Shown here one piece after another: positions 2,868 through 46,130 of a stretch of DNA of 46,634 nucleotides. Position 1 is the stretch's first letter; each line of letters begins with the position of its first letter. The stretch is from a virus. A program made the translations under genes and the position numbers. The DNA lies in IMG/VR virus record IMGVR_UViG_3300020178_000305, positions 1-46,634 of that record; one strand, written 5' to 3'. The notes under the pieces were generated by a model that worked only from the letters and a program-made list of their open reading frames with translations, was not told the origin of the DNA and ran no database searches.

Positions 2868-5540
2868 TTATTCTCCAAAATCGAATAGGTTGTTGAATGT
2901 ATTCTTTTGCTTAGTACTTTCTAAGTCATAGTTTAGAACACCAATTAAGTTTCCTAGTTTGTTGTCGATGATAGTTTCTTCCATTGCATCACCATCAAAC
3001 GGAAGGTCTTTAAACCATTGTGGTAAATGCATTTCATCAACCGGGTATGCAACACTTGTATAACCCATTGGGTTTTGTTTTAGTTTACAAACAATAACTT
3101 TCATACCGTCTACAATCTCTTGGCTGTAACGATCACCATTCATACGTTTGAGTGTATTCCAGTTGATACTTGCTCTTACGTGTCCGGGCATATTAGCCTT
3201 GCCTTGCTTTTGTTCAAGACGCTGATAGTGTCCGATCTTGTTTGCACGTTTAGGTGAACCTTTTTCCCAACCTGGACGACTCTTAAACTCTGTTCTAAAG
3301 GCTGTAATGCTATCAAGGAGTTTGTCTTGGTCTGCTTCTTGTAACACCATAAGTAGTAGTTCACTTAAGAAGTCCTGCATAAACACTGGTGTATCCGAAC
3401 GTTTAAGATCAAGACCCATTGCTTTTACTTTACCTTCTTTACCGTTGACGTCCATACGTTCGCCTTCGTTATCGTAAATTAAAGCCGCATAACGTTTCTT
3501 AGTAATAAACAAGCCTGATTCAGCAACAATTTCTCTACCTGCCGCAATAACGTCTGCTCTGCTTGCCGGACAGTGGAATACATCGTGCATAAACTTACTA
3601 AATGATTTGTTTGCCTGTTCACAAACTTGATCATAAAGTGCAATTACATTTTCTTTAGTCCAAGAAATTTTCCCTTCACTAATTTCTTTTTGTAAGATAG
3701 GAAACGCACTAAAGTAACAAGAGTCAGTATCTCCGTAGATAATAGATTTACCTACATGATTGTATTCTCCTGTAATTGTTTTGTTTACTTCTGCACTCAT
3801 GTGCTTAACAATTTGTCTACCTGTTAGTGTAGTTGATTGGCCAATACGTGGGTCAAAAAAGCGACAACCAGGATTAAGAATAGCACCATATAGACTGTTA
3901 AGATTAATCTTTTTGACCAACTGTCGTTTGTCCCAAAAAGCGATTTCAGTTTTATTGCCTGCATCAATGGCTTTCTTTTTCATTCCTTGAAGTTCTTTAC
4001 GTTCACTATACCAGCGTTTTAGTAGTCCAGGAATAACACCTTCTTTTTCGTGAGTGAAAATAGTTCCGTTAGCACTTAGCATCCAAGGATTATTACTGTC
4101 ATAGATTATTTTGTGTATCTGTGCACCGCTTAGTACATCTGATTCGCCGTTTTCCCAATCAACTGTAATAGACACATCACGTCTTTGTTCTTGTACAGCA
4201 TCAAATTCAATAGTACCAAATCGTCCTTCCCAAGCCGCCGCAAATGTTTTTTTCTTTAGTCCCATTTGCTCGCCTAGATATTTGTTTGTTAATTCAGGAC
4301 GTAGTTGTCCTACAATAGTTGCAGGGTCCATATTCAATGCACGAATTACACTAGGATACAGCGAGTTCAAATCCATTGAGCCAATCCATTTATGTACCCC
4401 TACTTTAGGATATGCAACATATGCACCTGCGGCAGGATCACTACCTGGTTCACGTTTTACTCTGTTAGGAACTTGAAAGCCACGTCTGTGTGCTTCGTTA
4501 ATAATACCTTGCTCTGTAACTGCAACAGCACCCATAGTGGTCTGTAGCAAAACTGTATTTGCATGAGCAAGTTCGTTTGATAAGTCAATGAACTTTAATT
4601 TTTGGTCCAACTTGTCCAGTAGTGCAACGTCTTGTCTGTTGTACTCAATGAACGTTCTGAAGTCATTGTTATAAAGTTGATCGAGCGTACCTTCGTAAAC
4701 AGTTTTTCGCTCGCCAACTTCCATTTCGCCAATGGCATCAAGTCGATAAGTGTGTCTTTCTTCATATGTGTATTTACGATATAATTCCAAACTATCTAAA
4801 TGCACTCTGCCTATTAGGTCATAGGTTTCTTGTTGCCTTCCGAATTTTTCGTATTCACGTTTCTTAGGAAATTGATCAAACAAACAAAAACGTCTAGTAT
4901 CATCTTTGCTTAATACTTTTGCTACACGGTTTACAGTATAAGGAATATCATAGCCTTCGCTGTTCCAGCCTGTTAAGATATCTGCATCTTGTATTAGATC
5001 TAAGAATGTTTTAAGCATCTCGCCTTCGTCATCAAACAGAACAACATCCTTGCCCCATTCTTTACATTCTTCTTTTGCTTGCTCCATTGTAAGAGTCTTC
5101 GGCGGAACAGCAAGTGTAATAAGTGCGTCCATCCATTGTAAATGTACAGTGATTGCAGTGATTGGCATAAACGGATCACTAGGATCAGCAAAGCCACGTT
5201 CTGGATCAAAATCTGTCTCAATGTCAAAGAAACAAACATTTAAGTTTGGAGCATCGTGATTGAGATAATTTTCACTTAAACATTGAAAGATAGGATTAAT
5301 ATCGCTTTCAAACAATTCTTTGTTTTTATTAATTGCTTGTTCTTTGCGAAAGTCTTTTGTGTTTTTAGAAATAATTCTATTTAGAGGATCTCCATAGATA
5401 CTTTTATATTTGCCTCTAGGATCCTTATAGTAAAAAGTATATTTTACTGGGAATTCTGAATATGTTCGCTTACCTTCTTTGCGTTCTACTACGCGAATCA
5501 AGTCTGCATTGCGATCAAAAAATGCGTCTACGTAACTCAA
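2868..5540 (-). CDS. gp43: DNA polymerase, family B (T4 gp43-like)
   Basis: The 890-aa enzyme is nearly the length of T4 gp43 (898). The proofreading domain carries exonuclease motif I FDIETD at residues 105-110. The polymerase domain carries motif A DLNSLYPSVI (near 390), motif B KINLNSLYGAI (near 545) and motif C YGDTDS (near 602), so both active sites look intact. It would replicate the phage genome with gp45 and gp44. The start codon is TTG at 5540. It is preceded by a strong AAGGAG with 7-nt spacing, and the next ATG lies well inside conserved sequence, so TTG is the likely start. A weak start codon with a strong ribosome site suggests tuned output. No frameshift or intein was seen. Confidence 0.97.
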   Translation of the reverse strand: MSYVDAFFDRNADLIRVVERKEGKRTYSEFPVKYTFYYKDPRGKYKSIYGDPLNRIISKNTKDFRKEQAINKNKELFESDINPIFQCLSENYLNHDAPNLNVCFFDIETDFDPERGFADPSDPFMPITAITVHLQWMDALITLAVPPKTLTMEQAKEECKEWGKDVVLFDDEGEMLKTFLDLIQDADILTGWNSEGYDIPYTVNRVAKVLSKDDTRRFCLFDQFPKKREYEKFGRQQETYDLIGRVHLDSLELYRKYTYEERHTYRLDAIGEMEVGERKTVYEGTLDQLYNNDFRTFIEYNRQDVALLDKLDQKLKFIDLSNELAHANTVLLQTTMGAVAVTEQGIINEAHRRGFQVPNRVKREPGSDPAAGAYVAYPKVGVHKWIGSMDLNSLYPSVIRALNMDPATIVGQLRPELTNKYLGEQMGLKKKTFAAAWEGRFGTIEFDAVQEQRRDVSITVDWENGESDVLSGAQIHKIIYDSNNPWMLSANGTIFTHEKEGVIPGLLKRWYSERKELQGMKKKAIDAGNKTEIAFWDKRQLVKKINLNSLYGAILNPGCRFFDPRIGQSTTLTGRQIVKHMSAEVNKTITGEYNHVGKSIIYGDTDSCYFSAFPILQKEISEGKISWTKENVIALYDQVCEQANKSFSKFMHDVFHCPASRADVIAAGREIVAESGLFITKKRYAALIYDNEGERMDVNGKEGKVKAMGLDLKRSDTPVFMQDFLSELLLMVLQEADQDKLLDSITAFRTEFKSRPGWEKGSPKRANKIGHYQRLEQKQGKANMPGHVRASINWNTLKRMNGDRYSQEIVDGMKVIVCKLKQNPMGYTSVAYPVDEMHLPQWFKDLPFDGDAMEETIIDNKLGNLIGVLNYDLESTKQKNTFNNLFDFGE

Positions 5541-12493: not shown

Positions 12494-12708
12494 TTTTTAC
12501 GTCCTCTAAATTGAGGCATACCGCCTGTCATGTGTGGTAAACTAAACCACAGTTTAAACCAATCTGGATCACCAGGCTTGATTCCTTTTTCTCTTTCAAT
12601 ACGTCTTTTTTCAGTTCCGGTAATAGATAGATTTTCATCAACAGGTTGCAGTCCTTTAAAGGCATATTCTCCAACTCCTGCTAATTTTTTAAGTGTATCT
12701 AAGTCCAT
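12490..12708 (-). CDS. Small late protein, 72 aa, unknown
   Basis: The 72-aa protein begins MDLDTLKKLAGVGEY and ends in a basic segment MPQFRGRKK. The N-terminal amphipathic helix followed by an acidic cut-like site resembles the other proteins of this block. No domain is recognised. The ATG follows AAGG and overlaps the nucleotidyltransferase stop, while its own stop overlaps the HAD gene start (ATGA-type coupling), so it is co-translated with them. Confidence 0.6.
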   Translation of the reverse strand: MDLDTLKKLAGVGEYAFKGLQPVDENLSITGTEKRRIEREKGIKPGDPDWFKLWFSLPHMTGGMPQFRGRKK

Positions 12709-13655
12709 TACACCGCCTTAAGTTCTGCTTTAAATTCGTCTTCTAAGTCACGTAAATGTTTTTCGTCTGGCTCGAAGTTCTTAATAACATCTTTCATCTT
12801 TTCTTTGTCGCCGTCTGCGGCAATTAATTGGTCATATAATTTCTTACCACCATATAGTGCCATTGCTACGCCAATAGCAGGTAAGCCGTATTTTACTATA
12901 CCTCTTACTATAGGAAGATCTAAGTATTCTTTTACAGTTTCAATAGCATCTGCAATCCAACTAATACCTTTCCATGCCGCAACACTAAAAGTAATTAACC
13001 ATTTATTATCATAAAGGAACTTTGCTATTTTTAAAGCCATGCTTCCTACTGACACAATGTTTTCATCTAAACTTTCATTATTGCCTAAGATGCCTTTTAG
13101 TTTATCAAACATCTTTTTAGCATATGGTTTAGCAGATTTAGTAACACCTTCTTCGAATGATGCAAAATCATCATCTATTACGTATTGTCTTAGTTTACTA
13201 GCACTCATTCCTGTAGCATCATCTGCATCTGGGTTACGTGATAAACGTTGAAAGTTAATTGAATTAAATTTAAACATACCGTGTGTTGATTCAACACCAT
13301 TATATTTTTCTAATAATTTACCTAACTTATCTTCACCTTCAAAAAACGTAACGTCAGTGTACCCTCTGCGATATAACTCTACAGCGGCAAACATAATATT
13401 TTTAGCAAGTTCGATATTAATGTCTGGGAAACTTTTCTTAGCCCAGTCTAATTTTTCTTGTGGTTGTAATGGATCTGAAGGCGGTTTTGCAATGCGATCA
13501 GTTAAGAATAAAATAGCATCGCCTGGACCTTGTTTAAGTGCTTCTACAAGAAGACCATGACCGGTTGTTGCGGGATTAAGTCTGCCTAATGCAAAACTAA
13601 CTTCTTTGTCTCCTGCTTCTATTACAGGTTTATCAAAGACTTCTCTTAAGAACAT
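12708..13655 (-). CDS. Cytidylyltransferase-like nucleotidyltransferase fused to a membrane domain
   Basis: The 315-aa protein has an N-terminal adenylyl/cytidylyltransferase fold: GRLNPATTGHGLLVEAL at residues 24-40 carries the TxGH form of the HIGH motif, and GMSASKLR near 150 is the ISSTxxR-like loop. NadM/NadR and phage NMN adenylyltransferases share this arrangement. The C-terminal part has hydrophobic stretches (WLITFSVAAWKGISWIA, IVKYGLPAIGVAMALYGG) and then a charged helix. The first residues MFLREVFDKPVIEA resemble a capsid-targeting sequence. GAAGG precedes the ATG. Fusion of an NAD-type nucleotidyltransferase with a membrane-active segment in a late gene is unusual. Confidence 0.75.
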   Translation of the reverse strand: MFLREVFDKPVIEAGDKEVSFALGRLNPATTGHGLLVEALKQGPGDAILFLTDRIAKPPSDPLQPQEKLDWAKKSFPDINIELAKNIMFAAVELYRRGYTDVTFFEGEDKLGKLLEKYNGVESTHGMFKFNSINFQRLSRNPDADDATGMSASKLRQYVIDDDFASFEEGVTKSAKPYAKKMFDKLKGILGNNESLDENIVSVGSMALKIAKFLYDNKWLITFSVAAWKGISWIADAIETVKEYLDLPIVRGIVKYGLPAIGVAMALYGGKKLYDQLIAADGDKEKMKDVIKNFEPDEKHLRDLEDEFKAELKAV

Positions 13656-15239: not shown

Positions 15240-17492
15240 CTATGCAGTTACAGTTTGTTTTTCAACAACAACATCAAGGTTAATTTTACCTTCTTTAGCA
15301 TCAATATTTAAGTGACCGCCGTTCTTAAGATCGCCGAATAATAAGATTTTACTTAAATCTTTCTTAATTTCTTTATCAATAACACGCTGTAAAGGTCTTG
15401 CACCCATCTTACGATCAAACCCTTTATCTACTAGATAATCAATAGCATCATCAGTAACAGTAACAGTTACATTTTGTTCAGTAAGCATTTCTTTAAGTTC
15501 AACTAAAAACTTACCTACAATTTTAATCATTGTATTCTTTTCAAGATTACCAAATTTTACAACACCATCTAATCTGTTACGGAATTCTGGAGCAAAAAAC
15601 TTTTTAAGTTCTGTATCTTCATACTCACGTTCGTCTTCTTCGCCAAATCCGATAGTATTCTTTTCTGCTTCAATAGCACCTAAGTTTGTTGTTAAGATCA
15701 GTACACAATTTTTACCGTCTGCTTCTTTACCATTTGAACCTGTAATTTTACCGTTGTCCATAAGTTGTAGTAAGATTTGTGAAACATCTGGATGTGCCTT
15801 TTCAATCTCATCAAGTAATAGTACACAGTTAGGATGTTCTTGTAATTTTGTAATCAATAAGCCTGCATTGTCCTCAAATCCTACATATCCTGGAGGTGAA
15901 CCAATTAACTTTGCCACCGAATGTTTTTCTTGATACTCTGACATATCAAAACGTACAAGTTTAACACTGAGTTGATCTGCAAGTTGTTTTGCTGTTTCTG
16001 TTTTACCAACACCTGTTGGACCCATGAATACAAATGAACCGATTGGTTTTGTATCAGGTTTTAATCCTGCTTGAGCAACAAGAATCTTATCTACAATATC
16101 ATCGATTGCAGAGTCTTGGCCAAATACAACTTTCTTAAGATTGCCTTCAAGAGTTGCTAGGTTACTTGTTTCTTTTTGTTGTACTTGCTCTGGCGGTAGA
16201 TTTACAACTTTAGCAAGTTCAAACTGGATTTCTTCTTTACCAACAATCTTATCGCCTTCAACTTTCTTTAAGTTAAATCTTGAACACGCTAAGTCAATCA
16301 AGTCAATTGCTTTATCTGGCAACTTCTTATCTGCTTGATACTTGACACTTAACTTAATTGCAGTATCAATTGCTTCTTCTGTAATAATTGTTTTATGGAA
16401 TTCTTCGTAGTATTTTTTGATACCTTCTAAAATACTTTTAGTTACACTTGCAGTAGGCTCGCCTACTGTAACTCTTTGGAATCGACGCATTAACGCACGA
16501 TCCTTTTCAAAGTACTTTCGATACTCTTCCCAAGTAGTTGAAGCAACAACTTTAATATCACCTTTACCTAATGCTGGCTTTAGCATATTAGCAAGATCAT
16601 TTGAATTGCCCTGGCCGCCGGCACCAGCACCGTTAATCATGTGTGCTTCGTCGATAAACATAATAGTCTTGCCTTGCTTTTTAATACCAGCCATAACAAG
16701 TTTAAAACGTTCTTCAAAATCTCCGCGATACTTACTACCTGCAAGCATAGCACCAATATCAAGGTTATAAACTTTATATTCTTGTAAAAACTCCGGCACT
16801 GCTTTGTTTACAATATTCCAAGCAAGTCCTTCTGCAATAGCAGTTTTACCAACACCTGGATCACCTACTAGTAACACATTGTTCTTTGAACGACGTCCTA
16901 GTGCAAGTGCAATAGTTTCTAATTCATCAGTTCTTCCAATTACAGGGTCAACTTTATTCTTGGCAACTTCTGAATTAAGGTCAGTTGTAAACTCACGTAA
17001 TGCTCTTTGACCAAGTGTACGCATTTCTTCATCTTCGTATGCGTTATCTACTTCGCTATTAAGATACTCTGCAAATTCTTCTTTTTTAATTCCTGCTTTT
17101 TGAATGTAGTAGTATGCAAAACTTTTCTTTTCATTAAGAATACTTAGAAATACATCTGTAACTTCAATATGGTGACGTCCATTAAACAGAACTTGTGTAA
17201 ACGCTCTATTTAGAACACGTTCTACTGTTGCAGTCTTTTTAGGTTTAAACTTTTTATTTTCTGCTTCAACAGGTAAAGTAATATCTTCTAATTCATTCTT
17301 TAAATAATTTTCAATATTCTTTTTAATAAATTCAGGATCAGCACCTACACCTGCAATTAAGTTACAGAAATTATCTGAACAGAGCATTGCAAAAAGAACG
17401 TGTTCAAGAGTTACATACTCGTGATTAAGTTTCTTAGCATCGCTAACTGATTTATCAAATACCGATTGTAGTTCGTCGCTTGGTTCAACCAT
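15240..17492 (-). CDS. clpA: ClpA-like AAA+ protease ATPase
   Basis: The 750-aa protein matches ClpA (758 aa). It has an N-terminal Clp_N repeat domain, AAA-1 with Walker A GDPGVGKTAIAEGLA (near 207), AAA-2 with Walker A GPTGVGKTETAKQLA (near 493), and no ClpB/ClpC-type middle coiled coil. An IGF tripeptide loop (NTIGFGEED, near 614) lies where ClpA and ClpX dock onto ClpP. This predicts that the phage unfoldase can work with host ClpP and redirect proteolysis. It is the last gene of the dnaJ-def-clpA unit; AAGGAA lies 11 nt before the ATG and the start overlaps def. Confidence 0.95.
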   Translation of the reverse strand: MVEPSDELQSVFDKSVSDAKKLNHEYVTLEHVLFAMLCSDNFCNLIAGVGADPEFIKKNIENYLKNELEDITLPVEAENKKFKPKKTATVERVLNRAFTQVLFNGRHHIEVTDVFLSILNEKKSFAYYYIQKAGIKKEEFAEYLNSEVDNAYEDEEMRTLGQRALREFTTDLNSEVAKNKVDPVIGRTDELETIALALGRRSKNNVLLVGDPGVGKTAIAEGLAWNIVNKAVPEFLQEYKVYNLDIGAMLAGSKYRGDFEERFKLVMAGIKKQGKTIMFIDEAHMINGAGAGGQGNSNDLANMLKPALGKGDIKVVASTTWEEYRKYFEKDRALMRRFQRVTVGEPTASVTKSILEGIKKYYEEFHKTIITEEAIDTAIKLSVKYQADKKLPDKAIDLIDLACSRFNLKKVEGDKIVGKEEIQFELAKVVNLPPEQVQQKETSNLATLEGNLKKVVFGQDSAIDDIVDKILVAQAGLKPDTKPIGSFVFMGPTGVGKTETAKQLADQLSVKLVRFDMSEYQEKHSVAKLIGSPPGYVGFEDNAGLLITKLQEHPNCVLLLDEIEKAHPDVSQILLQLMDNGKITGSNGKEADGKNCVLILTTNLGAIEAEKNTIGFGEEDEREYEDTELKKFFAPEFRNRLDGVVKFGNLEKNTMIKIVGKFLVELKEMLTEQNVTVTVTDDAIDYLVDKGFDRKMGARPLQRVIDKEIKKDLSKILLFGDLKNGGHLNIDAKEGKINLDVVVEKQTVTA

Positions 17493-28462: not shown

Positions 28463-28470
28463 TATTTATC
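28463..28470 (-). promoter_or_regulatory. Late promoter GATAAATA
   Basis: It lies 22 nt before the 124-aa gene, with AAGGAG in the leader, and overlaps the end of the DnaE-like gene. Confidence 0.72.
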
Positions 28471-28987
28471 TCAAGAACTCACGCCAGTCTAAGTCAAACT
28501 GGATTGAGTTTACCCTATGTACTCCAATAATATATAGCACATAACTAGATACACTAGAGCCTCTTCCGACTCCCCATACAATGCTATTTTCACGCATAAA
28601 GTCTACAAGATAGATCATATAACGCAACAAGTTTATCATACCTCTGCCTTCAAACTCTGCTAGTTCTTCAGCACATCTTGCTGTTTCTTCTTGTGTTTCG
28701 CACTTTGTTAGAATATAGTTGTGTACGTTTAGTGTCTTATATTCTTCAGGCATAAACCATTCACTCTGACATACACCGTCAAAAGTCTTTTGATCTACAT
28801 CTAGTGGAATATACTTCTTTAATTCTGGAATACCAAATTCTTTTGCATTTTGATTAAACTTATCAATATCGTCATTTGGATCACAAAGAACTATATGGCA
28901 CTTATCTATATGTCCAGAATATATCATATCAACAAGGTCTTTATTAGAAAACCGTGGGATACCGTTTGAATCAGTTTTTATTAACAT
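28466..28987 (-). CDS. DnaE-like fragment (Pol III alpha palm segment without catalytic Asp)
   Basis: The last part of this 173-aa protein, INLLRYMIYLVDFMRENSIV followed by WGVGRGSSVSSYVLYIIG and FDLDWREFL, aligns by eye with the DnaE segment around GPGRGSGAGSLVAYALKI and FDLLFERFL. It stops just before the region that carries the catalytic aspartates in DnaE. The first 110 residues are unlike DnaE except in general alpha/beta pattern. It cannot be a polymerase, so it may bind primer/template or the host holoenzyme. A TTGACA-17-TAAAAT promoter ends 6 nt before the ATG, and there is no Shine-Dalgarno. Confidence 0.75.
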   Translation of the reverse strand: MLIKTDSNGIPRFSNKDLVDMIYSGHIDKCHIVLCDPNDDIDKFNQNAKEFGIPELKKYIPLDVDQKTFDGVCQSEWFMPEEYKTLNVHNYILTKCETQEETARCAEELAEFEGRGMINLLRYMIYLVDFMRENSIVWGVGRGSSVSSYVLYIIGVHRVNSIQFDLDWREFLR

Positions 28988-32407: not shown

Positions 32408-33073
32408 TTATAATGGATTTGTGATAGTTCCCATATCAATACTAAACGCAGATGGTGATGTGATAGTTCCCATATCAACAATAGTAGAGGATCCTAAGAA
32501 TTCAATAATACTTGAAGTACTACCAGTAATAGTACCAAAATTAAATCCGTAAATATCTCGCACATCAATTAAATGAACAAGACTTTGAATATTTCTGACA
32601 TTTAAAATGTCTCTTTGTTGACCATCTAAATTGCCGCCTAGTTGTGGAGTAACGTCTGAACTTAATTCAGTTTGTGAATTAATTACTATTCCGTTAGCGC
32701 CTTGTGTTACAGTAGATACGTTTGTTCCACCAGCAATAGTAAATGTATCGCCCTCTGCAAGAGTAATATTTCCTGTGTCTGTAGCAACAATTAATTGTTG
32801 TAATCCACCTACACTAGAAATAGTTACGCCACTAGCATCTGAACTTACTGAAACATTACCGCCAGCAACAATCTTTTTGAATTGCAAATCATAGCCTACT
32901 TTTTGTGCAAATAGACCTTCACCAACAGAACCTAAGTTAGATGCTATTGTTTGTTCAGGTGCTCTATTATCAAGTTCAGTAAAGTTATTATTAACTTTTA
33001 CAAACGCTTCTCTTAGATCATCACCTGTTCCATCATTTGCTACGCCGCCGATATTAACTAATTGTATTGCCAT
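32408..33073 (-). CDS. Short fibre protein with NIG-DGTGD N-terminal module
   Basis: The 221-aa protein opens MAIQLVNIGGVANDGTGDDL followed by REAFVKVNNNFTEL. This N-terminal module is shared with the 2225-aa protein and the 146-aa protein. The rest is a beta-rich, low-complexity shaft (ending in repeated DMGTITSPS/DMGTITNP units). The module probably anchors the fibre to a common attachment site, by inference from sharing. A late element GATAAATA ends exactly 5 nt before the ATG in a 13-bp gap, and there is no separate ribosome site. Confidence 0.75.
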   Translation of the reverse strand: MAIQLVNIGGVANDGTGDDLREAFVKVNNNFTELDNRAPEQTIASNLGSVGEGLFAQKVGYDLQFKKIVAGGNVSVSSDASGVTISSVGGLQQLIVATDTGNITLAEGDTFTIAGGTNVSTVTQGANGIVINSQTELSSDVTPQLGGNLDGQQRDILNVRNIQSLVHLIDVRDIYGFNFGTITGSTSSIIEFLGSSTIVDMGTITSPSAFSIDMGTITNPL

Positions 33074-33086: not shown

Positions 33087-35759
33087 CTATTCTGGTTGTC
33101 TCTTAATTACAGTACGTTTAACTCTAGGATACTTTATTCCTACTGTAGGTCGGATTGCGTAATCCTTTTTAGGATATACTGCACCTTCTAGTGGTCGTTC
33201 GTAATTATATTTTGCGTGTATATTAGGTGACCCTTGTAAGTCATCTGAATCTGTTGGATCCTCTGTAGATATTGCATCATATAGTTGACCTTCTTCTGCC
33301 CACTTGCTTACAAGATACGCTTTTACATCTTCTTGTTTCCAGTGTGGGTACGTTTCCATCATACAAGCAACTAGTCCTGCTACTTGCGGACTAGCCATCG
33401 ATGTTCCTGAAATTTTAGAAATTTTATAACTGCCATTTCTAGGATCAAGTGCTGATCCTGAATTATGAGCACTCATAATGCTAGTGCCAGGAGCGTAAAT
33501 ATCTACGCCTGGACCACAATCACTAAAGTAAACTTTTCTGTCGAGCCCAGATGTTAATCCAACATCAGTAGCACCTACACATATATTTGGAATATCGTAA
33601 TCACCGTTTACAAGGTCGTCATTTGCTGTAGGTGAAGTACCTCTCATATAATAGTATGTCTGGCCATTCATTTCAAATGTATTATCCCAATCAGGACCGC
33701 CCGGTATATCATGCTTCCATCGTCCGTTGCCTGCCGCGCCAATAGTGATTACGCCTGCGTCAATAGCATCTTCAATATCCGCGTCCAATGCCGCAACTCG
33801 TAAAGGAATACGTTGTCCTGCTATAAAGCCCCAAGCATTTAATTGTGCATCTGAAAAAGGACTCGAACTTGAAAATACATCATTACGTTCGATAACTAAA
33901 TCAATCTGTGTTGGAGTTGCTTCATAAAATTTATATTCATATCTAATAGTCGGTGAACCCAGTACCCCATTTTGATAGTCAGTATGACCTTCATAAATTA
34001 ATGTGAATATTCTACTTCCTACTGTACCACTTGTACCGTAAAAAATTCTTTGAGCACTTCGATCACCGCCTGCAATCATAATTTTAGGAAGTGCAGGAGT
34101 GTTTTCATCAATACCAGAATAACTTGTTGCTCCTGCTCCAAATGTTAGATAACTGTTTGTACCCATGTATACTGTATTGTAGTTTTCGCTTAGGTATGTG
34201 ATATTAAACGGTAAATTAAGAGTCCAGTAACCATCATCGTTGCCACCAACTGTTGGAGTAACACTAGCAGTAAGTGTTGCTGTTGATCCAATTAATTGTG
34301 TTCCTAGTGAAGTAACAGTTGCCGCCGGGTTAGATTCTTGATAACCTACAATAGTACAACTCATAAATGCCGCTGTTGTTGGATCTGATGCTAGTGTTAC
34401 TGAAGTAGAATATGTAATTGAATATATTTCTGTATTAGGTAATGAAAGATTTAGATTAATTAAATCAATTTCTGCTGTGCCACCATCGGCAGATGTTTGT
34501 GTATCAGTAACACTAGCAACAGTGATACTATTTGCATCTTGTACTGTAACAGTCCCTTGAATAGTTGTCTGTCCAGTTATTCCGCCTGAACTAACATTAT
34601 GTCTAAAATTAATTTCAGATGGTCCTTGAATTAGAACTGTATATGTAGAATCTGGCACTGTAGTTAAAGTTTCACTTACGTTTCCTCCAGTACGTGTCCA
34701 GCCTGTAGGAATAGCAGTATAGTCACCAACAGCAGATCCTTCACTACCACTTGTGGTAATACGTTGTCCTAGACCGTTGTCTGGATCTCCTGTAAAACTT
34801 GCTAGTGATGTTGTAGAACTATAAACTCCATTTGCACCTCCGTATACAATATCACCGGTTGGAGTATATCTAGTTCCTCTATAAGTAACCGCAGTAATTG
34901 CGCTAAAACTCCATTGTTGAGGGAAAATACTCATACCCCAACTGTTGTTTACTACTGTTGGATTTTTATATCCTGTAACAAGATTTGGTGCTTTATTTTC
35001 GTGGAATGCTCGTATGTAATCAAATACATAAGGAAAATTACTGTTATTAATAGCGCCAGCGTAGTAGTATAAATTATAAAGGTTAGCATCTCTAGCCCAA
35101 CCTTGTCTATTACCACCCACAGTTCCCATTACGTGGTTTGCATGATAACTACCTGGGTTTGAATATGTGTAAGTATCTGGTGCCCCTACTTGAGATTGTA
35201 ATGTATTCCAATCAAATAAATTAAGTCTAGTTGCCGATCCATCATCAATATTCATTGCCGAAGGTTGATCATATTCTGGATGTCCGGTGTATACACCATT
35301 ACCATCACAAATAATACAGTCAACGTTTCTACCTGTTGCATTTAATTTGATAGTGCTATTTAAATTAGTAAACAAACTGCCCCAGTTTGTAAGATTACTG
35401 CCTCTTGTTAAACGATAAAGACCCCAGTTTAAATCATTGCTGGAGTTAGTCGAGTCGCGATCAAAGTCACCCGTTTGTTCAATAATATCAAAGTGCTCTG
35501 CTTCAATATTTCTATCTTTAGGATTAAGTTCAACTACTTTAACTCTAGGATCATTTTTTACTAGTTCTGCTTCGACATCAGTGAGCCAGTATTCAGTTGT
35601 ACGTGAAATCGGTCTTTGGTTGTTTACTGTAACTGCTCTATCAGGAATATATAAATCGCCACCCGGAGTTTGCATATCGTCATAGAACGAATCTAGATCA
35701 TCTTTAGAATGTAATGTGACCATGTACACTCTTTTTTGGACTAGTTTAGCCAAAGACAT
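33087..35759 (-). CDS. Virion-linked subtilisin-like serine protease (S8) with large insertion
   Basis: The 890-aa protein has an S8 triad: Asp152 (ICDGNGVYTG), His206 (SYHANHVMGTVGG) and Ser787 (SGTSMASPQVAG), with the oxyanion Asn near 271 (VVNNSWG). The first 85 residues (VYMVTLHSKDDLDSFYDDM...DPRVKVVELNP) look like an I9-type propeptide. About 350 residues between the Asn and Ser regions are an inserted beta-rich domain. The conserved catalytic residues predict an active protease. It lies amid fibre genes and has GGAGG before the ATG, so it is likely a virion or tail component acting on the host surface or on phage proteins. Confidence 0.88.
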   Translation of the reverse strand: MSLAKLVQKRVYMVTLHSKDDLDSFYDDMQTPGGDLYIPDRAVTVNNQRPISRTTEYWLTDVEAELVKNDPRVKVVELNPKDRNIEAEHFDIIEQTGDFDRDSTNSSNDLNWGLYRLTRGSNLTNWGSLFTNLNSTIKLNATGRNVDCIICDGNGVYTGHPEYDQPSAMNIDDGSATRLNLFDWNTLQSQVGAPDTYTYSNPGSYHANHVMGTVGGNRQGWARDANLYNLYYYAGAINNSNFPYVFDYIRAFHENKAPNLVTGYKNPTVVNNSWGMSIFPQQWSFSAITAVTYRGTRYTPTGDIVYGGANGVYSSTTSLASFTGDPDNGLGQRITTSGSEGSAVGDYTAIPTGWTRTGGNVSETLTTVPDSTYTVLIQGPSEINFRHNVSSGGITGQTTIQGTVTVQDANSITVASVTDTQTSADGGTAEIDLINLNLSLPNTEIYSITYSTSVTLASDPTTAAFMSCTIVGYQESNPAATVTSLGTQLIGSTATLTASVTPTVGGNDDGYWTLNLPFNITYLSENYNTVYMGTNSYLTFGAGATSYSGIDENTPALPKIMIAGGDRSAQRIFYGTSGTVGSRIFTLIYEGHTDYQNGVLGSPTIRYEYKFYEATPTQIDLVIERNDVFSSSSPFSDAQLNAWGFIAGQRIPLRVAALDADIEDAIDAGVITIGAAGNGRWKHDIPGGPDWDNTFEMNGQTYYYMRGTSPTANDDLVNGDYDIPNICVGATDVGLTSGLDRKVYFSDCGPGVDIYAPGTSIMSAHNSGSALDPRNGSYKISKISGTSMASPQVAGLVACMMETYPHWKQEDVKAYLVSKWAEEGQLYDAISTEDPTDSDDLQGSPNIHAKYNYERPLEGAVYPKKDYAIRPTVGIKYPRVKRTVIKRQPE

Positions 35760-35761
35760 TA

Positions 35762-37330
35762 TTATGCCTCCATTTTAAGAAGAGTCAGTGTAGTACTAAT
35801 AGTTGCAGTTCCCCCACTCTTGTTTTTAACTGCCGCGTAAATTGTTGTATCGTTTGCCAAGTTCCAGCCTAATACCGCCGGACCAAAATTAATTGTTTGC
35901 GCCCCTGATGTTAATACTTCTGCAATTACTCCAGCATCTGGTGAAGGATCTACTCCTTCTCCTCTTGTGGAATCTGCTGTCCTTGCTAATGAACTAATAT
36001 ATAATCTTACCCAAGCCGCCGCGGATGTTTGAATGCTCATCAATGCGTATGCTTTGTGTCCAGTAAATGTTACATTAGCATCTACGTTGTTAGCAATACT
36101 GGCGGTTGCTGTTTCTACTGTTCCTCTAGAAGCAAGTCCGTCTACAACACCTCCGCCAATGTTTGAATCAACATATGCTTTAACTGCCGCTTCTGTCGGA
36201 ACTACTGTATTTGAATTTCCTGCAAGTGTAGTATCTGTACTAAATTCGTTTACTGTAGCGCCACTAGCAAATCCAATGCTTGCTACAGAAGTTAATGTTA
36301 AGTTTGATAAACTTGTTGCAAAAGTAAAGTTGCCTGCACCATCTGTTTTAAAAATTCCGTTTGCAGATCCATCTGAAATACCTAGGTCTGTTAATACTGT
36401 AGGAGAGTCGGTAATTCCATATCCTGCTAGTGTAGTTGGAGTATTTTGTACGTTACTAAAATCAGGTTCATTAGTTGCGTTAATCCAAGTTAAGCCGGTC
36501 CATTTTAAAATTTGATCTCCTGCTGGATTTGAAATACTAGTGTCATCTAAATCACTAACTTGGTAAACAGGCTTGTTAGTTGTGTTAGTCCAATCAAGGA
36601 AATAAGAACTATCAAATCCATCAAGTGTATCTGCATTTAGTCCACTACCACCTTGTGTAATATCGTCTGCTGGTGCCCATTTATTTTCTAGCCATTTTAA
36701 AACTTGACCATTTGTTGGAGGCGTTGTAGTTGTGTCAACATCTGTTAAATCATCAAGGTCGATAGGAATAATAGGTTTGTTACTTAGATCATTATAACTA
36801 CCAGTTGTTGCAATAGTAGCAAAATTAGGACGACCAGTAATTTCTGAATATGCTATCGAGTTATTAACCCATGCACTGCCATTATATTTTAAAATTTGAT
36901 CTACAGCAGGTGCTGTAAGTGTTGTATCTGTTAATCCTGCAAGTGTAGTAGATCCACCACCACCGCCTGAGCCAACTCCAGTTGCTTCAATTGTAAGTGT
37001 TCCTGCGGCGTCATTATAATTTAAAATTATCCCAACACCTGCAACTAAAAATCCTGCAACTCCATCTTGTAAACGTTCATCAGTAAGATACTTTTTAGTA
37101 CCTTCAACAATATCGTCTGTATTTTCTGGAATAGTCGGAGTACCAGTTAAGTCTGCATATGCACCACTAAATGGATTATATGGAACTCCTGCAACAGTTA
37201 GACTGGTTGCTTGAATATTACCTGCACCAATAATACCTGATCCAGTTAAGTTTAAGTTATCACCGATGGGTAATTCTTTTAACTTATTACCGTCATCTAC
37301 ATCTACAATTAGTGGTATTCTATCTGCCAT
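35762..37330 (-). CDS. Tail fibre protein with repeated shaft motifs
   Basis: The 522-aa protein is low in Cys and rich in Thr, Asn and Gly, with repeated units (DQILKYNGSAWVN, GQVLKWLENKWAP, DQILKWTGLTWIN) and TGTPTIPE/ITGRPNF spacers typical of trimeric fibre shafts. The C-terminal part (about 410-522) is a likely beta head domain. A TATAAATA late promoter lies 18 nt upstream, overlapping the stop of the preceding gene, and AGGAAA precedes the ATG. Confidence 0.82.
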   Translation of the reverse strand: MADRIPLIVDVDDGNKLKELPIGDNLNLTGSGIIGAGNIQATSLTVAGVPYNPFSGAYADLTGTPTIPENTDDIVEGTKKYLTDERLQDGVAGFLVAGVGIILNYNDAAGTLTIEATGVGSGGGGGSTTLAGLTDTTLTAPAVDQILKYNGSAWVNNSIAYSEITGRPNFATIATTGSYNDLSNKPIIPIDLDDLTDVDTTTTPPTNGQVLKWLENKWAPADDITQGGSGLNADTLDGFDSSYFLDWTNTTNKPVYQVSDLDDTSISNPAGDQILKWTGLTWINATNEPDFSNVQNTPTTLAGYGITDSPTVLTDLGISDGSANGIFKTDGAGNFTFATSLSNLTLTSVASIGFASGATVNEFSTDTTLAGNSNTVVPTEAAVKAYVDSNIGGGVVDGLASRGTVETATASIANNVDANVTFTGHKAYALMSIQTSAAAWVRLYISSLARTADSTRGEGVDPSPDAGVIAEVLTSGAQTINFGPAVLGWNLANDTTIYAAVKNKSGGTATISTTLTLLKMEA

Positions 37331-44477: not shown

Positions 44478-44804
44478 CTAAAATCCTACGCTTTCACCAC
44501 AACCACAACTTGCCGTTGATGCTGGGTTTGTAATTGAGAAGTATGATCCAAATACTTCTTTTTTGTAATCAATAGTACTACCTACCAAGTACATAACGCT
44601 AGTTCCGTCTATTATAAACTTACCTTTTGGTAAATCTATAATTTCGTCTCCTGATTCGATACTATCATCTAGTGTCCAATCATACTTAAAACCAGCACAT
44701 CCACCGCCTTTAACTGCTAATCGAACTGCTTGTGTGCTATGTTCTTTTAGCATTTGCACCATTTGTTCTTTAGCGGAATCTGTTATCTTAACTAAGTCTG
44801 GCAT
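44478..44804 (-). CDS. A-type iron-sulfur carrier (HesB/IscA/ErpA family)
   Basis: The 108-aa protein has the three Cys of the family: GGGCAGFKY and the C-terminal CGCGESVGF. It carries or inserts Fe-S clusters. Related genes are known in marine phages, but it sits here together with a phage ferredoxin. A late-type element AATAAATA lies 19 nt upstream and AGAGGT precedes the ATG, so unlike most metabolic genes it has a late promoter. Confidence 0.92.
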   Translation of the reverse strand: MPDLVKITDSAKEQMVQMLKEHSTQAVRLAVKGGGCAGFKYDWTLDDSIESGDEIIDLPKGKFIIDGTSVMYLVGSTIDYKKEVFGSYFSITNPASTASCGCGESVGF

Positions 44805-45581: not shown

Positions 45582-46130
45582 TTATTCTCCGTTTGTAAGT
45601 GTAATTATCCCACAAGCAAGTCTATCACCGGCATTTCCGGTTTTTAGCGATTCTTCATCTCCTCCCTTGCCGAGGTCATCTTCATCTTTATGAACTACTA
45701 CTGCTCTGCCAACAACACTTCTTTCACCGATTAAATCAATGCGTTCTGCTTTGATAGTAAACTCTGCGATCCCGTTCGAGTTTGCGGTAATGTTGCCTAG
45801 ATCTCCGACATGGCCTGATTTAAGATCGCCATGCTCCACGTTGTCGGGATTGTAATGACCTCCCGCACTTTCACAACCTTTGGATAGATCTCCAAATTCA
45901 TGAATATGAAATCCATGCTCTCCTTCACTTAACCCAGTTATTCGACCCTTTACAAGAGTGGCTGTGCCTGGTCCTTGCATAAAGAGTATTTTGCCTTTTA
46001 CTTCGTCTGAGTGGACTAGGTCCGCAACAGCAACTACAGGCGTGTCAGATTCTGACAACTGCTTTATACTTTCGCACTGACAAGTTCGAGAGCGTGTTCG
46101 TTCACAATTTTTGATTTGTTTAAATCGCAT
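45582..46130 (-). CDS. sodC: Cu/Zn superoxide dismutase
   Basis: The 182-aa protein has the signature [10 protein letters not shown] (Cu ligands H75 and H77), GGHYNP (H92), a zinc-region [14 protein letters not shown], and the closing [12 protein letters not shown]. The copper and zinc sites look complete, with Cys86 and the late Cys as the disulfide pair. It converts superoxide to peroxide. There is no signal peptide, unlike the usual periplasmic enzyme, and the first 35 residues are an extra basic/polar segment. That segment overlaps the end of the UV endonuclease gene, so the true start could lie further in. Confidence 0.92.

Follow-up and report, generated by a model that had tools for sequence, protein, structure and literature searches.

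Subtilisin-like proteases are already annotated in cyanophages of the Kyanoviridae (phrog_9158; S-CREM1, S-H38, Sf-FR1, S-RSM4, P-SSM2 PSSM2_297, T4-GC 292). The protein described here is encoded on the minus strand of a viral DNA stretch of 46,634 nucleotides (IMG/VR record IMGVR_UViG_3300020178_000305; the whole stretch is hereafter called the window), and because such annotations exist it is a further member of a known family. Like the Kyanoviridae proteins, with which it is homologous over the full length, it has the catalytic triad, an I9-like domain and a site in a fibre cluster, and most of them also have a partner fibre ending in a domain that we call AD and a C-terminal tag of their own. 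They differ in that their identity to the window protease is ~30–43% and most lack its insert between the catalytic His and the oxyanion Asn.

Subtilisin BPN' and proteinase K (MEROPS S8A) share with the window protease the catalytic fold, the triad, the oxyanion Asn and, by the fold of its model, an I9-type pro-domain. In contrast to them, the window protease has no signal peptide, carries a 350-residue beta insert and a C-terminal tag, and reads HAN instead of HGT at the catalytic His. A beta domain inserted in the catalytic domain is also present in the subtilase CspB of Clostridium perfringens (4i0w), where it is a jellyroll; CspB, however, is non-viral, has another insert and stood only at rank 48 in the Foldseek matches. 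Kumamolisin-type sedolisins (S53) occupy the same cassette slot and bear the same tag as the subtilase, but differ from S8 enzymes in their Glu-Asp-Ser residues and oxyanion Asp. In T-even phages, the fibre gene 37 is followed at once by gene 38, which encodes the fibre-tip product. The cassette described below resembles this pair in working arrangement; no homology is claimed, and gp38, an adhesin or chaperone, is no protease. Known phage fibre-tip enzymes mostly attack sugars. In the literature searched, we found no description of the insert arrangement, the AD–tag cassette or the exchange of a subtilase for a sedolisin, and among open-licence papers none on phage sedolisins or on the cassette.

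A conserved subtilase in the fibre cluster

The protease gene and its catalytic codons are as follows.
33087..35759, minus strand: predicted virion subtilase (S8; phrog_9158), 890 aa with C-terminal tag (PF00082, phrog_9158, AlphaFold2 model, PDB matches)
35304..35306, minus strand: catalytic Asp152, invariant in all complete members
35142..35144, minus strand: catalytic His206, invariant
33726..33728, minus strand: oxyanion Asn678, invariant
33399..33401, minus strand: catalytic Ser787 (SGTSMAS), invariant

The 890-aa ORF, which has an ATG start, was confirmed. Its only Pfam match is subtilase PF00082 (8.5e-18; 65 bits against a cut-off of 21.8), and the profile of phrog_9158, a PHROG family without assigned function, matches it at 4e-91 in two stretches, the best of which covers residues 8–300 with the N-terminal and catalytic parts. 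An AlphaFold2 model built with 45 sequences reached a mean pLDDT of 83.6, and its top matches in a Foldseek search of the PDB were subtilases. The protein belongs to S8 by its Asp-His-Ser triad, which stands in order and is accompanied by the oxyanion Asn; Asn678 and Ser787 lie at the ordinary spacing. An intact triad and a position within a fibre cluster had both been proposed in a preliminary description of this DNA, and both were borne out; the cluster comprises fibre and connector genes.

Our analysis revealed that Asp, His, Asn and Ser are kept in all of the ~180 complete family members that were checked. All four positions were invariant in the first homologue set (n=98), and in the second set (190 rows, many distant) each residue was present wherever the site was covered, bar one frame-shifted fragment; the substituted catalytic residues for which the preliminary description would have had relatives searched appeared in neither set as a property of the family. 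Since there are hundreds of homologues and the triad is intact in all complete ones, the ORF is not a chance one. The protease chemistry of the family is well supported, and the window protein is, judging from its sequence, apparently an active subtilisin-type enzyme. An inactive subtilase fold serving as an adhesin scaffold could be suspected from a far relative in S-CAM1 (phrog_15006), in which an alignment read by eye places Glu where the catalytic Asp stands. We consider such a scaffold highly improbable, because the four residues are present throughout the complete members of the main family; a pseudo-protease reading was ruled out on this conservation.

Further subtilases were seen in related loci (L numbers). 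The S-CAM1 protein (L198 5389-7641, SXBG_00005) is a divergent subtilase that lies in the slot behind an AD fibre and has the tag, and phrog_15006 is labelled 'tail fiber protein'. Tandem subtilase genes, two paralogues ~40% identical and both with intact triads, occur in nearly 20 loci, including L028, L030, L037, L043, L044, L056, L062 and L063. A 2648-aa cyanophage protein annotated as peptidase S8 (L197 1-2418; S-BM3 SBM3_00202, T4-GC_519) belongs to a second lineage of phage subtilases found in the same cluster.

An I9-like N-terminal domain

Two features precede the catalytic domain.
35520..35738, minus strand: I9-like pro-domain, residues 8–80 (model topology, BPN' prosegment match, family-wide conservation)
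35484..35519, minus strand: low-confidence linker, residues 81–92, the likely auto-cleavage region (pLDDT <50 at residues 84–89)

In the AlphaFold2 model, DSSP assigns a b-a-b-b-a-b order to residues 9–78, N-terminal to the catalytic domain, which is the topology of I9 pro-domains. When a profile of this N-terminal part was compared with 177,635 PDB sequences, the prosegment of subtilisin BPN' (1spb_P) came first and a second BPN' prosegment (3bgo_P) third, with E-values of 0.44 and 1.6 that are not significant alone. Pfam I9 itself matched only at 0.08–0.15, in two family members, and the I9-like region is conserved across the whole family. The fold of the model and the rank of the two prosegments together lend support to the I9-like N-terminal part of the preliminary description. 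From the position of the linker in the model, the pro-domain is probably removed there by auto-cleavage.

An all-beta insert between His and the oxyanion Asn

The catalytic domain is interrupted by an insert with two parts.
33819..34859, minus strand: all-beta insert, residues ~301–647, made of two beta domains and placed after His and before the oxyanion Asn (alignment, insert model)
33864..34262, minus strand: second insert domain, residues ~500–632, common to non-protease phage structural proteins (sequence matches)

The insert sits after NNSWG, the substrate-binding strand of the His206 region, and before the helix that precedes the oxyanion Asn678. The preliminary description was correct in reporting a beta insertion of ~350 residues, but had placed it between the oxyanion and Ser regions; the alignment rules this position out and places it between His and Asn. 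When modelled alone, the insert was all beta with a pLDDT of 90.3. The His–Asn spacing is bimodal in the family, being short (<175 residues) in 91 members and long (350–800) in 91, and the insert is missing from about half of the family.

Pfam and PHROG searches with the insert gave no identity, and comparison with PDB folds returned weak beta-sandwich matches alone, to which we assigned no fold name. Its second half has 47% identity over 101 aa with a separate protein, S-SRM01 gp332; fibre proteins from Xanthomonas and Stenotrophomonas phages are also similar to it. Other relatives carry other modules: cupredoxin-like domains related to gp10-like connector proteins in some, two LamG lectin domains in the S-SCSM1 relative, an esterase-like domain in the ACG-2014h relative, Gly-rich stretches in others, and in L174 and L176 an insert of another kind that lies between Asp and His. 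A constant protease core with varying accessory modules is as expected for a virion enzyme acting on surfaces.

Two of these modules were noted in several related loci. Cupredoxin-like domains, several with His/Cys/His/Met ligands kept, occur in virion proteases and in other proteins of the fibre cluster, either as appended or as inserted domains (L087 8010-10013, L086 7995-10916, L021, L092, L071, L177), and may represent copper sites on virions. In L086 7995-10916 and L177 7563-10976, an esterase-like alpha/beta-hydrolase domain is fused C-terminally to the subtilase, giving two hydrolases within one predicted virion protein.

The partner fibre and its AD domain

The neighbours of the protease gene are listed below, together with its tag.
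35762..37330, minus strand: partner fibre gene, 522 aa, conserved upstream neighbour; phrog_9627
35765..36145, minus strand: AD domain, a proposed dock formed by the last 127 aa of the partner fibre (fibre alignments, AD surveys)
32408..33073, minus strand: gp9/10-like fibre connector, downstream context (T4_gp9_10_N / phrog_677); neighbour not conserved family-wide
33090..33200, minus strand: C-terminal tag of the protease, residues 854–890 (ERPLEGAVYPKKDYAIRPTVGIKYPRVKRTVIKRQPE); motif unique among window ORF ends, covaries with AD

The upstream fibre gene is the conserved neighbour of the protease family, while the downstream genes scatter over many clusters; in the window, the stop codon of the fibre gene lies 2 nt ahead of the protease ATG. 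The preliminary description had looked to an adjacent 2225-aa fibre, and this had to be revised, as it is the 522-aa fibre directly upstream that is conserved as the partner. Processing of the 2225-aa fibre, which is not the conserved immediate neighbour, found no support.

In an alignment of 12 diverse sequences, 18 positions of the AD are invariant, and the domain ends at the fibre C-terminus or at most one residue away in 80/80 AD ORFs. It had no Pfam match in the fibre and no PDB match, and among PHROG families it matched only those of unknown function. In a first AD survey, ranked by likeness to the window AD, a subtilase came next in all ORFs but one. The survey was repeated with ADs of fibres lacking a subtilase partner, and in 65/65 non-redundant cases with room the next gene encoded an S8 protease (41), an S53 protease (4) or a 500–930-aa protein (20); no fourth gene type was found behind an AD fibre in these cases. 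The genes behind AD fibres start within a few bases. The third occupant is a virion protein of another type, followed by a small ORF that bears the tag. Its family is unannotated and starts MAVxKxEYxVNxGNTGW (L196 5383-7677, L197 5380-7203, L200 8357-10684, L192 2409-4376).

Association of AD and tag

AD-partnered subtilases end in RPxxGxx[YF]PR, often doubled. We define an AD/tag cassette as a fibre ending in AD, with the next gene a few nt away and a product that contains this motif; the window has such a cassette (AD 35765-36145, 2-nt gap, tag 33090-33200), and the protease is the only window ORF of at least 50 aa that ends in the motif. Among non-redundant subtilases with AD, the pattern occurred in 157/160, and on inspection the other 3 had recognisable variants. 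Subtilases without AD lacked the tag in 15 cases; the sixteenth, L166, has a tag match and is cut by the contig end. Sedolisins had the tag in 10/10 cases with AD (one internal) and in 0/4 complete ones without AD. In the third cassette type, the tag ends a separate ORF of ~77–121 aa behind the large ORF, and it becomes internal where extra domains are appended (L310, L092, L161). The S-SCSM1 genome as a whole has just two plus-strand ORFs with the tag at their end; one of them, gp137, lies in the same cluster with no AD fibre directly before it, and is an exception to simple pairing.

When the subtilase core is placed on a tree, the AD state and the tag state switch at the same two points, of which only one falls on well-supported branches. 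Because the S8 tree thus holds only one or two AD/tag changes, the P of a Fisher test overstates independence, and we keep the test solely alongside this caveat. The association therefore counts as a few events and not as 160, and its strength is that it recurs in S8, in S53 and in small ORFs. It might be explained by recombination, if conserved flanks allowed the middle gene to be swapped and AD and tag did not dock physically; the modular exchange seen in the slot and the small number of independent changes within S8 would agree with this. Yet the tag, a degenerate protein motif, varies in sequence and is sometimes internal and sometimes a separate ORF; selection on the peptide accounts for this better than DNA homology does, and we regard recombination as a rather unlikely account of the association.

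Sedolisins in the same slot

A 425-aa protein matching kumamolisin (8.8e-31) takes up the slot in L220. Fifteen phage sedolisins of this type were found, 10 behind an AD fibre and 5 behind another fibre type. Wherever an aligned row extends to the site, Glu, Asp, the oxyanion Asp and Ser are all retained; the aligned region corresponds to the mature enzyme, and no kumamolisin-type pro-domain was seen in it. Known sedolisins prefer acid pH, which suits seawater poorly and weighs against the role proposed below.

That one slot accommodates two unrelated protease families argues for selection on peptide-bond cleavage at this place. This bears on whether the window protease makes just one cut, that of its own pro-domain, and is afterwards a structural or receptor-binding part of the fibre. 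A large beta insert related to fibre proteins and the non-protease proteins found in the slot elsewhere would suit such a part. On the other hand, all four catalytic residues are kept in the sedolisin replacements, and the triad is uniform even in tag-less, AD-less subtilases, both of which point to catalysis in trans and make self-processing as the sole function quite improbable.

Location on the virion

The S-SCSM1 homologue gp144 carries the note '(virion protein)' in its sequence record, and so do NMNAT, a lysozyme-like protein and a carboxypeptidase. By mass spectrometry, 45 proteins of S-SCSM1 were detected, with these last three named as non-structural ones (PMC9602691). We counted 47 virion notes or products in the record, against the 45 detected proteins (PMC9602691), and the note very probably stands for detection in CsCl-purified virions. 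For S-CREM1, 14 virion proteins have been reported. The preliminary description proposed a virion-borne protease, for which absence from virions would be the contrary finding; the relative gp144 bears the note of MS-detected proteins, in agreement with the proposal. As gp144 has ~31% identity to the window protease and lies on the AD-less, tag-less branch, a virion location of the AD-type protease is reasoned from the family. This location is well supported for the family, and the window protease itself is probably carried on the virion.

The enzyme might instead mature the fibres, cutting neighbouring fibre proteins during assembly much as prohead proteases do for heads. Its gene lies within the fibre cluster and is tightly coupled to one fibre gene, it has no visible signal peptide and so would be in the cytoplasm during assembly, and a pro-domain would allow timed activation. 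However, what is conserved in the partner is an intact C-terminal domain and not a cleavage site, other AD fibres have no protease in the slot, the downstream genes are not conserved, and a relative is noted as a virion protein. Fibre maturation is for these reasons unlikely, and of the two roles proposed in the preliminary description the genomic evidence leans towards the other, digestion of surface proteins, here by an enzyme docked on a fibre.

Proposed action at the fibre tip

We lean slightly towards a zymogen subtilase on the virion that is docked by its tag to the AD and cuts a host-surface protein during adsorption. This proposal builds on the observed S8 fold with its conserved catalytic residues, on the I9-like domain, and on the cassette, the AD–tag association and the S53 replacement, from which we infer activity, auto-cleavage, the physical docking of AD and tag, and the host-surface substrate. 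The protease would be made in the host cytoplasm as a zymogen with a folded I9-like pro-domain, probably removed autocatalytically. The RPxxGxxYPR tag would then fix it onto the AD that ends the co-encoded fibre, with the enzyme at or near the fibre tip, where it could cleave host-surface proteins as the phage adsorbs. The beta insert, replaced in relatives by cupredoxin-, lectin- or esterase-like modules, would tune target binding, and the slot is interchangeable: elsewhere the AD fibre is followed by a sedolisin, or by a virion protein that is not a protease and has its tag on an ORF of its own.

More generally, certain fibre tips may work by plug and socket, with the AD as socket and interchangeable tag-plugged effectors, S8 and S53 proteases among them, and with host-surface proteolysis selected in adsorption; to this we give an even chance. 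If true, a virion protease lineage widespread in aquatic phages would make the cutting of host surface proteins a regular step of infection. AD and tag would also predict which two proteins bind each other, and could point to further fibre-tip effectors among proteins so far unannotated.

Phage context and other genes of the window

Members of the protease family lie on contigs of up to 383 kb and in Kyanoviridae isolates. The DNA polymerase of the window is nearest to those of jumbo phages, namely Sinorhizobium phage Phosso (49%) and Atu_ph07, and a photosystem reaction-centre gene is absent from 16 related contigs, which are fragments. A cyanophage host for the window was set aside on these two grounds, the jumbo phages being those of other bacteria.

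Several other genes were noted. The gp43-like DNA polymerase (2868-5540, minus strand) is complete, and a 173-aa ORF (28466-28987, minus strand) matching the DNA-polymerase family phrog_11127 may be a second or partial polymerase gene. A 750-aa ClpA-like protein (15240-17492, minus strand) matches the PHROG 'ATP-dependent protease' (phrog_4871, 2.6e-241). Just upstream of the fibre cluster lies a Cu/Zn superoxide dismutase gene (45582-46130, minus strand; PF00080, 1.3e-45), adjoined by an IscA-like Fe-S biosynthesis gene (44478-44804). Proteins of the NMNAT/cytidylyltransferase kind have been found repeatedly in cyanophage virions, and the window encodes a cytidylyltransferase-like protein (phrog_3041) at 12708-13655 on the minus strand.
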